DNA of 64,000 nucleotides, from assembly GCF_000969905.1 (NCBI RefSeq), contig NZ_CP009520.1, forward strand, positions 1,302,001 to 1,366,000, read 5' to 3'. Positions 9,346-46,372 of this stretch are shown here, piece by piece (positions within the stretch are counted from its first letter, which is position 1; each line of letters starts with the position of its first letter). The DNA is from Methanosarcina vacuolata Z-761. GTDB lineage: Archaea; Halobacteriota; Methanosarcinia; Methanosarcinales; Methanosarcinaceae. A model generated the notes under the pieces. The model was not told the DNA's origin. It worked only from the letters and a program-made list of their open reading frames with translations, and made no database searches. A program made the position numbers and the translations under genes.

Positions 9346-9435
9346 GGATTTGTATCGTCCAGGATTTGTATCGTCCAGGATTTGTATCGTCTAAGACTGG
9401 TATAATTAGGACTGGTATAATTAGGACTGGTATAG
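9345..9435. repeat. Two adjacent tandem repeats (16 bp x3, then 15 bp x3)
   Basis: AGGATTTGTATCGTCC occurs three times (9345-9392), then AGGACTGGTATAATT occurs about three times (9393-9435). They lie between the convergent secretion and kinase-like genes. Confidence 0.85.
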
Positions 9436-9439
9436 TCTA

Positions 9440-10066
9440 TTACACTAATTCAAGGTATTGCAAAATAAACTGCACGCAATTATCTACTCCTATTTTACTT
9501 GTATCTATTGAAAGATTATACTGCCTTGCATCAGTCCATTCCTTTCCTGTAAGCATATGGTGATAACGAGCCCTTTCGCTATCGCTTTTAGTAATCATTT
9601 TACTGGCCTCTTCTTGCGAGACATTGTATAACTTTTCAATACGCTTTTTACGGAAATCAATGTCCGCATGTAAAAATATGCTGGTATGATTAGGGTAGGC
9701 ATGTAAGATATGAGAGCCACATCTTCCTATAATTACCGCTGAACGTTCATTAACGACGTTTTTCATGATTTCTGCTTCAGTTTTAAAAAGCTCTCGATCT
9801 GTTGGAGTAAAAATAGGCGGTGGTATATACACAGAAGAGCTAATATATCCGCCTGATTGTAAAAACGATTCCCAAAAAGACAGTTTTCTTTCATCAAGGG
9901 ATTCCAATTCATCTTCTAATACTGAAAGTTTTTTAGCAGCCAGTCTAATGATTTCGCGATCCAAATAATAAATATCCAATTTTTTAGCGAGTTCCTGCCC
10001 GATGTACGCTCCCCCACTCCCTAGCTGGCGGCTAATTGTAATTACAATTTGTGAATTCTTTTTAAT
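9440..10066 (-). CDS. Cytidylate kinase-like P-loop protein with apparent ATT start
   Basis: A 208-residue protein of the cytidylate kinase-like family (nucleoside monophosphate kinase fold). The N-terminal P-loop variant SRQLGSGGAYIG, then LDIYYLDREII and VIIGRCGSHIL, are typical. The ATG/GTG/TTG-limited frame starts only at TTG 9979, which would delete the P-loop. The conserved N-terminus continues upstream without stops to an ATT at 10066, seven bases after a perfect AGGAGGT (10080-10074); an in-frame TAA lies just before it at 10072-10070. I therefore take ATT as the initiator. The substrate is not known; these proteins are common in anaerobes. A start-codon mutation or sequence error is the alternative. 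Confidence 0.75.
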   Translation of the reverse strand: MKKNSQIVITISRQLGSGGAYIGQELAKKLDIYYLDREIIRLAAKKLSVLEDELESLDERKLSFWESFLQSGGYISSSVYIPPPIFTPTDRELFKTEAEIMKNVVNERSAVIIGRCGSHILHAYPNHTSIFLHADIDFRKKRIEKLYNVSQEEASKMITKSDSERARYHHMLTGKEWTDARQYNLSIDTSKIGVDNCVQFILQYLELV

Positions 10067-10073
10067 TTTTTAT

Positions 10074-10080
10074 ACCTCCT
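10074..10080 (-). promoter_or_regulatory. Ribosome binding site that decides the ATT start
   Basis: AGGAGGT on the minus strand, a full match to the archaeal anti-Shine-Dalgarno, spaced 7 bases from the ATT at 10066. Confidence 0.7.
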
Positions 10081-10194: not shown

Positions 10195-11430
10195 GAGCCT
10201 GTCTTAAAATTCAAATCAATTATACAATTGGATTATAGATGGTTCTAATATCAGAATCCTACACCGTTAATTGTCTGAAAATATAGTATAGATTGACCTT
10301 CTGGTATGTATATGAAATAATACATACCAGAATTAGGAATACAACAGAATAACAGACAATTCTATTGATAAACCTTAAGTAATTAATTTTCAATATTTTT
10401 ACGATTAAAATGGTTTACAACAAATTATTCTATAAGTATAGAAGTCTTAAAGAAGGGAATAATAGTTCCACAATTATCAATCTAGCCAATAACCAATTAT
10501 ATTTTGATTATCCAAGTAATTTTAATGATCCGTTCGATTCTAGGATTTACTGCTTTTATGAAGGAACAAAGGAAGAGATCTACGAAAAAACTGGGATTAA
10601 TATTGATGAGATTAATAAAGAAATGTATGAAGAACATAATGGGATAATTAAAATCGATTATAGGAAATTATTTATTGAAGATGGGAAAAAAAATCTTCAT
10701 GGCGATGTACTTTATGTACTTTACCCAAAGATTTGTTGTTTTAGTGAAGTATGTGATGATATCCTGATGTGGAGTCATTATGCAGATTACCATAAAGGTA
10801 TTTGCCTATGTTTCAAGTCTGTAAAGGTGAATAATGAATATTGTTTACCAATTGGTACTCCAAATAGTCAGTTTGCCAACATTTATTTTCAAAGAGTAGG
10901 TTACCATAAAAATGTACCAGAGCCAATAAATTTGTTTGATGAAGATATGAAAATTAAAATGCATGAAGTTTTATTAGACAAACTATTATTTTGGAATTAT
11001 GAACAAGAGTTCAGAATTATCTTAGATCCAGACTCTGATAAAAGACTACTTTCTGAAGAGATGTTTGAAAAGGGAATTATAAAATATCAAAAAGAGAGCT
11101 TACAAGGGATTATTTTTGGCATGAAAATAAAATATGAAAATGCAGAACTTGTTTATAATACAGTTAAAGAGAATTATCTAGATAAAGGATATGTGGTAAA
11201 ATTCTATGAAGCAAAAGAAGTTCGTTATAAATACGAAGTAAAAGTTGACGAAATAAAGAATATTAATACATATCTTCTTGAACTTAAACATTCTGATGAA
11301 TTACATTCGCTTACATTGCGTGATTATATCTATTAATGTGGCCTTATTTTCTGAAAATTTATGACCTTATTCTAAGTTGAGGTTTCAATTGCCTACTTGT
11401 AGAATCAAATTGAATTTTAAGACATGCTCT
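10195..11430. mobile_element. Possible transposon-like segment bounded by inverted repeats around the DUF2971 gene
   Basis: AGAGCCTGTCTTAAAATTCA at 10195-10214 is matched in inverted orientation at 11411-11430 with one mismatch (AGAGCATGTC...). The 1236-bp interval has only the DUF2971 gene and no transposase, and no clear target duplication flanks it. The length is like a simple insertion sequence, so it may be a decayed or cargo-only element. Confidence 0.45.
10410..11336 (+). CDS. DUF2971 family protein
   Basis: A soluble protein of 308 residues with features of the DUF2971 family: KYRSLKEG near the N-terminus, the NFNDPFDSR motif (about 37-45) and CDDILMWSHYADYHKGICLCF (central). The family has no established function; members are scattered and often found in accessory DNA. 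The ATG at 10410 has no Shine-Dalgarno sequence, so the message may be leaderless or use another signal. The gene is visibly more A+T-rich than the neighbouring core genes and sits between inverted repeats, suggesting transfer. Its only neighbours are mobile-element remnants. Confidence 0.65.
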   Translation: MVYNKLFYKYRSLKEGNNSSTIINLANNQLYFDYPSNFNDPFDSRIYCFYEGTKEEIYEKTGINIDEINKEMYEEHNGIIKIDYRKLFIEDGKKNLHGDVLYVLYPKICCFSEVCDDILMWSHYADYHKGICLCFKSVKVNNEYCLPIGTPNSQFANIYFQRVGYHKNVPEPINLFDEDMKIKMHEVLLDKLLFWNYEQEFRIILDPDSDKRLLSEEMFEKGIIKYQKESLQGIIFGMKIKYENAELVYNTVKENYLDKGYVVKFYEAKEVRYKYEVKVDEIKNINTYLLELKHSDELHSLTLRDYIY

Positions 11431-36064: not shown

Positions 36065-37597
36065 TTATCTGAACTTAAATCGGGAGCCAATTCCTTTCAT
36101 GAAACTATTGACACCGCTGCCCGAATCGGATACGGAAATTTTTTCCATTTCTCTTTTTCCTGCTTCTTTTGCAGGCTGAAGTTCAGACTGGGGTTCAGGT
36201 TGTGCTTGCCTACTATGAATTCCGAGCATTAACCGGCTTTTTGAGATAAGATCATTGAGCTCGGATAGTTCGGTACTTCGGGTATCGTGCAGGAGCAGAG
36301 CTTCGTTTCTATCAAGCGTCGAGAGCCATATATTTGCATCCATCAAGTTTTTGAGAAGTTCCCGCTCTGCTTCAAGCCTGTGTTTTATACGTTCCACACG
36401 ATCGGACAGGGATTTCAATTCAGTTTCAAAAACTTCTTTCTGAGCCTGGGACAGTGTGTTCGTTTTTCCAGCGGCTTCCTGGAGCGAATCAATTTCTTTC
36501 ACAAGGTTGTCATAGGGATAGATCCTTGAAGGACCTTCCATTTTAAGAGTATAGCTGTGATTCGGGTGGGAAATATGGTGGGTTTCGATTTCCTGCCTCA
36601 GCCGGAATTCTTCTCCGCAACTGTCGCAGATGATTTTTACAGGGAGTTCGTTTTTCAGGGCGATGCTGATCGCAGCCTGAAGGTCTTCGGCTTCCTGGCG
36701 AAGTTTTTCCGTGCTAATTCCACCTGAAATTGCGAACTCAAAGACGATTTTTCTTATGGTTTCCCGCTCTTCGGGCAAATTCCAGAGCATATGCTGAAGC
36801 AGGAGCACCATTGTCCTGTCCACTGTCGGGCATCCGCTGCTGCAGGCTGCAACCTTCAAGACCTGAATAACTTTTTTCCAGCGCCGGTCCGAAATTTCAA
36901 TTTCCTGGAGCTGAAGGCTCTTTCTAAGTTCAGTTATAATGACCTCAACGTCAGGGTCAACAGGCATATCCTTTGCACGTGCTCGGAGTTCGTATATTGC
37001 GGAAACCCTGAGGCTTGCAGCAGGTTCGAATTCGTCAGGGCTCCTGAAAAGGAGGTCCCGGAAATTTTCATCATCCTGAATGTAGGAGAGCCTGTACCTG
37101 AATAAAAAGCGGTCATAAAGGGCTTCAAGGCTTTCGTTTTCGTCAGGAAGCTCATTAGATGCCCCGAAAACCGAAAGCAGAGGCACGTCTACAAGTTCTC
37201 TGCCGTTATGGTATTTGTGCTCATTGAGGATTGTCAGGAGGCTGTTCAGGATCGCACTGCTTGCTTTGAAAATCTCGTCCAGCAAAGCAATATGCGCAGT
37301 TGGGAGACAGCCATCGATTTTCCGGCGGAACTCGTCTTCTTCCAGGGCTTTTAAGGAGAGTGGGCCAAATAGCTCTTCAGGGGTGGAAAAACTCGTCAGG
37401 AGATAATTGAAGAAATTTCCGCTTTCGATTGACTGGCAGATATTTTTTGCAAGCTGGGTTTTTGCCGTTCCAGGCGGCCCGAGAAAAAGGAGGTTTTCCC
37501 CGGACAGCACAGCAAGAAGAGAGCCATTGATCTCGGTTTCTCGCTCTTTAAAATAGGCCATAAATGCGGATTTGATCTCAAGAAGCTTTTCTTTCAG
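36065..37597 (-). CDS. MoxR-family AAA+ ATPase, RavA-like, with apparent CTG start
   Basis: A 510-residue AAA+ protein. Walker A is GPPGTAKT, then the RavA hallmark FSTPEELFGPLSLKAL, Walker B ALLDEIFKA, LNSLLTILNE and sensor ASNELPDENESLEALYDRF. Residues about 350-372 form a possible C2H2 zinc finger (CDSCGEEFRLRQEIETHH), an addition to RavA. The only ATG (37561) leaves out the conserved opening helix; the frame continues upstream as LKEKLLEIKSAF to CTG at 37597, six bases after TGGAGGT (37610-37604). I take CTG as start; ATG 37561 is the fallback. Forms an operon with the VWA gene. Confidence 0.85.
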   Translation of the reverse strand: MKEKLLEIKSAFMAYFKERETEINGSLLAVLSGENLLFLGPPGTAKTQLAKNICQSIESGNFFNYLLTSFSTPEELFGPLSLKALEEDEFRRKIDGCLPTAHIALLDEIFKASSAILNSLLTILNEHKYHNGRELVDVPLLSVFGASNELPDENESLEALYDRFLFRYRLSYIQDDENFRDLLFRSPDEFEPAASLRVSAIYELRARAKDMPVDPDVEVIITELRKSLQLQEIEISDRRWKKVIQVLKVAACSSGCPTVDRTMVLLLQHMLWNLPEERETIRKIVFEFAISGGISTEKLRQEAEDLQAAISIALKNELPVKIICDSCGEEFRLRQEIETHHISHPNHSYTLKMEGPSRIYPYDNLVKEIDSLQEAAGKTNTLSQAQKEVFETELKSLSDRVERIKHRLEAERELLKNLMDANIWLSTLDRNEALLLHDTRSTELSELNDLISKSRLMLGIHSRQAQPEPQSELQPAKEAGKREMEKISVSDSGSGVNSFMKGIGSRFKFR

Positions 37598-37603
37598 GGC
37601 CAG

Positions 37604-37610
37604 ACCTCCA
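37604..37610 (-). promoter_or_regulatory. Ribosome binding site that decides the CTG start of ravA-like gene
   Basis: TGGAGGT on the minus strand, spaced 6 bases from CTG 37597 and 42 bases from ATG 37561, so it cannot serve the ATG. Confidence 0.6.
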
Positions 37611-45730: not shown

Positions 45731-46132
45731 AAGCAAAGTTATAATCTCAGGAAAACTTCCTTTAGCTAAATTATTCACTAATCGCTTCAGTATTTTGAAG
45801 GGTATGAGTGCATCTTTTTACGCAACTTCTTATTTTGTTTTATACGATTTTAGTGTCTAATATGTACTCTTTGTTAATTCTAATTTTATTTGAAAAGATC
45901 AACTGAGGGCTGTTTCCAATTTATTTCTGGCAATTTCTTTTTTTTTCGAGCCGTAATAGAGAACTTGTCCGTTTAAATCTTTTTTCTTTATAACTTGACA
46001 TTATATATAGAACTGAAATTGTTATATAGAAAGGAGAACGATAAAGATTTAGAATCTTTGTTACCTACAAAAAGATATGCTTTAATATTTTTAAAGTGTA
46101 ACTACTTGCAAAGATTATTTATAAACTACCGT

Positions 46133-46139
46133 GGGGGAG
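46133..46139 (+). promoter_or_regulatory. Ribosome binding site before the ATT start
   Basis: GGGGGAG, 5 bases before ATT 46145; no ATG, GTG or TTG lies at a usable distance in the coding frame. Confidence 0.55.
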
Positions 46140-46144
46140 TCAGT

Positions 46145-46372
46145 ATTAAGAGAAGGAGCAGGACTGATATCGCAGTAGATATTTTAAGAGTCGCAATGAA
46201 CGGGGCCAAGAAAACTCATATTGTATATGAGGTAAATCTGAACTTCAATATCGCCCAGAAATACCTTGAAATGTTAAAAGAAAAAGAGCTTATCAGACAT
46301 GAAAATGGGCTTTTCATCACTACTGACAAAGGAAAAGTCTTTCAGGAAATGGCTAAGGAACTCAAGCTCTAA
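46145..46372 (+). CDS. Winged-helix DNA-binding protein (HTH_45 type) with apparent ATT start
   Basis: A compact archaeal winged helix of 75 residues: KRRSRTDIAVDILRVAMNGA, KKTHIVYEVNLNFNIAQKYLEML and KELIRHENGLFITTDKGKVFQEM. Homologues usually begin M-K-R-R-S. Here the codon before KRRSRT is ATT (46145), five bases after GGGGGAG (46133-46139). No ATG or GTG is in frame nearby; a TTG at about 46106 and the 125-codon frame from 45995 would add an unlike N-terminus. I take ATT as the initiator. It stands alone. Confidence 0.72.
   Translation: MKRRSRTDIAVDILRVAMNGAKKTHIVYEVNLNFNIAQKYLEMLKEKELIRHENGLFITTDKGKVFQEMAKELKL

Follow-up and report, generated by a model that had tools for sequence, protein, structure and literature searches.

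The window analyzed here, 64,000 nucleotides of the Methanosarcina vacuolata Z-761 genome (NZ_CP009520.1, positions 1,302,001 to 1,366,000), carries on its minus strand a gene for a cytidylate kinase-like protein whose P-loop is encoded 5' of every canonical start codon in its frame, together with two further genes that begin with non-canonical codons (Table 1). The perfect Shine-Dalgarno (SD) sequence, the ATT at 10066 and the closing TAA at 10072 that a first-pass annotation had described can be read directly on the minus strand as AGGAGGT (10080-10074), ATAAAAA (10073-10067) and ATT (10066-10064), followed by AAA AAG AAT TCA CAA, with the stop two codons 5' of the ATT. The position of the P-loop was also as that annotation had it, the first canonical start being the TTG at 9979, codon 30, for which we looked for an SD at a usable distance and found none; further in-frame ATT codons 5' of the P-loop lie at 10048, 10042 and 10036. 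The product is a full-length PF13189 protein (profile positions 1-176 of 176, 174 bits vs a curated cut-off of 28, E=3e-51), and since profile position 1 aligns to residue 9 of the frame, where the match begins, the P-loop belongs to the true N-terminus of the kinase. The motif AGGAGGT is by itself not rare, with 8 copies in the 64-kb window vs 7.2 expected; by simple arithmetic, a given codon would have it within the ~6-position spacing range with a probability of ~3e-4. The N-terminal peptide predicted from ATT 10066 is (M)KKNSQIVITISR.

Table 1. Positions of the kinase, winged-helix and MoxR-type genes and of their start signals in the window.
Feature	Position	Strand	Remarks
Cytidylate_kin2 (PF13189) kinase gene	9440..10066	-	208 residues from ATT; range includes stop codon
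Putative kinase start ATT; ancestral ATG/GTG	10064..10066	-	ATG/GTG in all homologues; ungapped SD-to-start alignment with G024
SD AGGAGGT, 7-nt spacer to ATT	10074..10080	-	GGAGGT in G024; GGAGG-type in L014-L017
In-frame TAA closing kinase frame	10070..10072	-	Window sequence
P-loop segment SRQLGSGGAYIG, codons 12-23	9998..10033	-	5' of every canonical start; conserved in homologues
TTG, first canonical start in kinase frame, codon 30	9977..9979	-	No SD; P-loop lost if used
Winged-helix (HTH_45, PF14947) gene, ATT start	46145..46372	+	ATT 15, ATA 2, TTG 10, ATG 1 of 28 species
SD-like GGGGGAG of winged-helix gene	46133..46139	+	GGGGGAGGAG in most relatives
MoxR/RavA-type AAA ATPase gene, CTG start at 37597	36065..37597	-	CTG in 28/28 species
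SD GGAGGT of MoxR-type gene, 6 nt before CTG	37604..37609	-	Window sequence

The kinase gene has no same-strand neighbor directly upstream, the adjoining gene there (10410-11336) being on the opposite strand, and across its start region we found no stable RNA structure beyond chance (z=0.01). A 13-codon open reading frame, MEVPIFIKRKFWN, lies at 10129-10088 on the minus strand, in the kinase frame, and ends 21 nt 5' of the ATT; no conservation of this uORF was found in G024 or bog_70.

Orthologues of the kinase were found in just 3 of the 31 genomes of the genus, and homologues outside it came from Syntrophaceae/Deltaproteobacteria and Paludibacter MAGs, a patchy distribution that suggests lateral transfer. 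The distinct homologues compared comprised two from Methanosarcina, three from Syntrophaceae/Deltaproteobacteria and one from Paludibacter. When their N-termini were aligned with that of the window kinase, a comparison that the first-pass annotation had proposed as a way of looking for ATG at the ATT codon, the codon at this position was ATG in bog_70 (G011), G024, L014 and L017 and GTG in L015 and L016, which upholds the placement of the start at 10066. From the SD through codon 5, the ungapped alignment of G024 with the window reads GGAGGTATATAAA-ATG-AAA vs GGAGGTATAAAAA-ATT-AAA. With ATG or GTG at this position in every homologue and a gapless G024 alignment, the kinase ATT is a derived third-base change of a canonical start; it occurs in this one genome alone, with no conservation among relatives. 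An ATG in close strains had been named in the annotation as grounds for rejecting the ATT: ATG is present in other species, and it marks the ATT as derived without disproving it. In the G024 orthologue itself (L006, within 911-1531), a conserved Trp codon is replaced by TGA (GKE*TD), which may represent a pseudogene, recoding or an assembly error.

The coding sequence that follows the ATT shows protein-level constraint. Relative to its congeners the window kinase has no stops, frameshifts or indels over 208 codons, and it retains 82 of the 87 residues that are invariant in the six other kinase proteins. The triangulated window branch has a dN of 0.078 and a dS of 0.250, giving a dN/dS of ~0.31 that does not date the ATT change and may reflect selection before it; the pairwise values against two congeners are 0.33 and 0.39. 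These rates indicate that the gene has been under purifying selection over most of its branch, and a search of the kinase frame for signs of a pseudogene (stops, frameshifts, relaxed selection) found none. Because of this purifying selection, the absence of a stop and the genus-wide use of comparable starts presented below, low-level AUU initiation appears likelier than a dead kinase gene.

The first-pass annotation had grouped the kinase with two other genes of the window that have similar non-standard starts, at 37597 and 46145. Both starts are real and conserved across the genus; the one at 46145 is an ATT, but the one at 37597 is a CTG and so not an ATH codon. The winged-helix gene starts behind a conserved GGGGAGGAG, and its TTG and ATT forms are one base apart (GTATTGAAG / GTATTAAG); an in-frame TTG at 46106, upstream of the ATT, is without an SD and is not conserved. 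In this genome and in G028, the winged-helix leader (window 46130-46145) is missing 3 nt of GGGGGAGGAG, which leaves a weaker SD before the ATT. The downstream ATG at 37561 of the MoxR-type gene is not conserved: many species have ACG, ACA, GCA or GGA there. In the segment compared, 17 of 18 four-fold sites vary, so the CTG has been held while its surroundings changed.

Additional genes of this kind came from surveys beyond the window. When 133 orthologue pairs, covering part of the window genome and of G015, were screened for conservation first, 18 genes were flagged, four of which were convincing by inspection: the MoxR CTG, a CooC-type ATA, a HepT-like ATT and a NosD-like ATA. This census replaced an earlier one in which both orthologues had to have an SD and which was noisy, picking codons beside true ATG starts; a second secreted ATA protein derives from that earlier census, and an HPS/RraA-type ATA from a codon survey. 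Codon log-odds over 1.66 Mb of the genome gave no enrichment of ATT after SDs (2 seen vs 2.4 expected), and a CTG excess in the SD survey was traced to a tandem LSDET repeat near 656 kb and rejected as artefactual. This pentapeptide repeat (G000:C2 ~656087-656282, minus strand) is without a canonical start and mimics a CTG-start signal.

The most uniform of these starts is that of a CooC-type P-loop ATPase (G000:C2:1473946, minus strand; loci L228-L257), which is ATA in all 30 Methanosarcina genomes compared; in one, at L242, a stop codon directly precedes it. In a DNA pattern search, the CooC N-terminal pattern was found with ATA in 16 genomes from three genera and with ATG in 0 of 76 family genomes, the pattern being a strict one that leaves the start codons of non-matching genera unread. 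An HPS/RraA-type (hexulose-6-phosphate synthase) gene (G000:C2:94565, minus strand; L128-L157) starts behind GAGGTGAT; among 30 genomes, its start is ATA in 16 (one clade), ATC in 12 (the other clade), ATG in one and, in one more, a codon deletion that leaves ATT. For a HepT/DUF86-like gene (G000:C2:878185, plus strand; L258-L275, L281, L282), ATT was found in 17 and ATC in 3 of 20 copies and ATG never, with a stop codon immediately 5' of the start in L268; divergent HepT paralogues in the genus start with ATG. The HepT-like gene lies directly 3' of another gene's stop. Its weak start may set its dose against that of the upstream partner gene. Two secreted NosD/S-layer-like proteins (G000:C2:1655385 and 1661396, minus strand) have signal peptides whose first codon is ATA in G000 as well as in G015, and in G000 a TAA immediately precedes the ATA of the first (1655385).

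In the MoxR, winged-helix, CooC, HPS and HepT families, SDs are conserved, and each family has an in-frame stop close upstream in at least some genomes; such stops fall within a few codons in many species, with MoxR and the winged helix having the fewest. Since these stops are close and the SD fills the intervening space, the codons in question are unlikely to be Ile or Leu codons inside longer frames. All of the SD-spaced start codons are single-mismatch relatives of AUG. Within families, the start drifts among ATT, ATA and ATC and is hardly ever ATG, though ATG is one transition from ATA, and this near exclusion of ATG suggests that the CooC, HPS and HepT genes have been selected for weak starts.

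We conclude that the kinase is probably translated at a reduced level from the SD-positioned AUU at 10066 by initiator Met-tRNA, and that this codon derives from a canonical start and has been tolerated. Held by the strong SD, the 30S subunit would have the initiator anticodon placed on AUU with a third-position mismatch, and initiation by the ordinary initiator Met-tRNA would then be slow but real, with the kinase still starting with Met. A substitution at the third base of a canonical start, with ATG as the simplest precursor, would have given rise to the ATT in this species' lineage, and the new codon might have been tolerated because near-cognate starts (AUU, AUA, AUC, CUG) with a good SD ~7 nt upstream were already in use in several conserved genes. 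The anatomy of the kinase start, its homologous position, its derived state and the constraint on the protein are established, as is the fact that five other gene families conserve non-canonical starts; the use of AUU 10066, the weakness of initiation there and the insertion of Met are what we infer from them. Since the kinase ATT is not conserved, the other families support it by analogy only. The in-frame TGA of G024 counts against this explanation, as it means that Methanosarcina may be able to do without the gene, and so does the lack of ATT enrichment after SDs in the genome.

Start codons of this type have precedents in bacteria. Like the kinase, E. coli infC has an AUU start behind an SD, but infC encodes the fidelity factor (IF3) itself and is autoregulated, whereas the kinase is no initiation factor. 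A non-canonical start also sets protein dose in Streptomyces sigR (PMC5472188), where, in contrast to the species-specific kinase start known from its sequence, the codon is GTC, the gene is bacterial and the effect has been experimentally shown. In Listeria, rsbW mutants provide the same single-base ATG-to-ATT change, with translation lowered and not abolished; expression fell in the order ATG > ATA > ATT, the ATT form being lowest and detectable only by Western blot (PMC13068326). Unlike the kinase, which has no canonical start so near, these mutants came from laboratory selection and have a secondary start 6 bp downstream. Within the genus, the available part of a Ribo-seq study of M. mazei gives 5% CTG, ~20% TTG and ~20% GTG starts among unannotated sORFs; it concerns small ORFs only, unlike the kinase, and that part reports no ATT or ATA starts (PMC11456600). 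A survey of start switches in prokaryotes has AUG-to-AUU on record, very rarely (1 of 61,358), and considered annotated starts only, so that unannotated AUA or AUU starts would be missed (PMC5622118).

This rarity of AUG-to-AUU switches also fits a damaged kinase gene, and the main competitor of reduced translation from AUU is that a recent third-base change silenced the kinase, leaving an incipient pseudogene with negligible translation. Loss of a start codon is a plausible opening step of decay, the change is derived and confined to a single species, and the gene is sparse in the genus and broken in G024. Silencing is nevertheless unlikely, if worth serious consideration, given 208 codons free of stops and frameshifts, a branch dN/dS not above that of the other copies, an SD that is still perfect and conserved ATT and ATA starts elsewhere in the genus that point to real use. 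Those starts recur across many independent assemblies, which also weighs against a sequencing or assembly error that hides a true ATG; a single base in a single genome with A-rich surroundings invites this suspicion, but the change is a substitution and not a homopolymer length error, and the assembly, in 2 contigs, is 99.99% complete, making an error very improbable.

Initiation elsewhere in the frame is the least probable of the alternatives. TTG is a usual start codon, and three more in-frame ATT codons precede the P-loop, yet none of these has an SD at a working distance, and a start at TTG 9979 would delete a nucleotide-binding loop that is conserved in the homologues, none of which starts at that position. 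An active role for the AUU, coupling kinase synthesis to initiation fidelity (with aIF1 taking the role of IF3) or to termination at the uORF, and hence to the state of translation, is improbable as well, if slightly less so. In its favor, infC (ATT) and Streptomyces sigR (GTC) are IF3-repressed (PMC5472188), Sulfolobus aIF1 disfavors non-canonical starts according to work cited in PMC6237735, and ATG is nearly excluded from the CooC, HPS and HepT genes, where weak starts seem to be selected. Against it, neither the kinase ATT nor the uORF is conserved. The analogy to infC and IF3 drawn in the first-pass annotation is not supported for this organism: we are aware of no archaeal IF3, and its only aIF1 (SUI1) gene, located elsewhere in the genome, has an ATG start preceded by GGAGG, which leaves no infC-like feedback loop.

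The conserved set of AUA, AUU, AUC and CUG starts in Methanosarcina is a stronger and more surprising result than the kinase ATT. Prokaryotic starts other than AUG, GUG and UUG are regarded as curiosities; to judge from these genes, starting weakly seems to be an ordinary trait of these archaea that has been overlooked. The available portion of a review of archaeal initiation names no starts but AUG, GUG and UUG (PMC7531240), and in the open literature that we searched we found no description of conserved Methanosarcina genes that start with AUU, AUA or CUG. A tentative proposal, which we place somewhat short of probable, is that in Methanosarcina and neighboring genera such starts are held by selection as translational attenuators (of the CooC-type ATPase, HPS, the MoxR-type ATPase, the HTH_45 regulator, the HepT-like protein and the secreted NosD-like proteins), probably via start discrimination that depends on aIF1, the archaeal factor reported to select against non-canonical starts (work cited in PMC6237735), with the kinase as a recent recruit. 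If this is true, an AUA present in 30 of 30 species, in one with a stop directly upstream, would make near-cognate initiation a stable, selected setting of protein dose in archaea, of which the kinase would provide a species-level example of the ATG-to-ATT step. Annotation restricted to ATG, GTG and TTG would then mis-start these genes, gene starts could be corrected in a genetically tractable genus of methanogens, and CooC, HPS, HepT and MoxR would be direct targets for the study of aIF1 start discrimination in vivo.

Two further observations concern the kinase gene and its surroundings. The genome contains a second, divergent Cytidylate_kin2 paralogue (G000:C2:1081614-1082084, minus strand; L002; 92 bits), and short tandem direct repeats, TTATACCAGTCCTAA and GACGATACAAATCCTG, occupy window positions 9366-9440, immediately 3' of the kinase stop codon.
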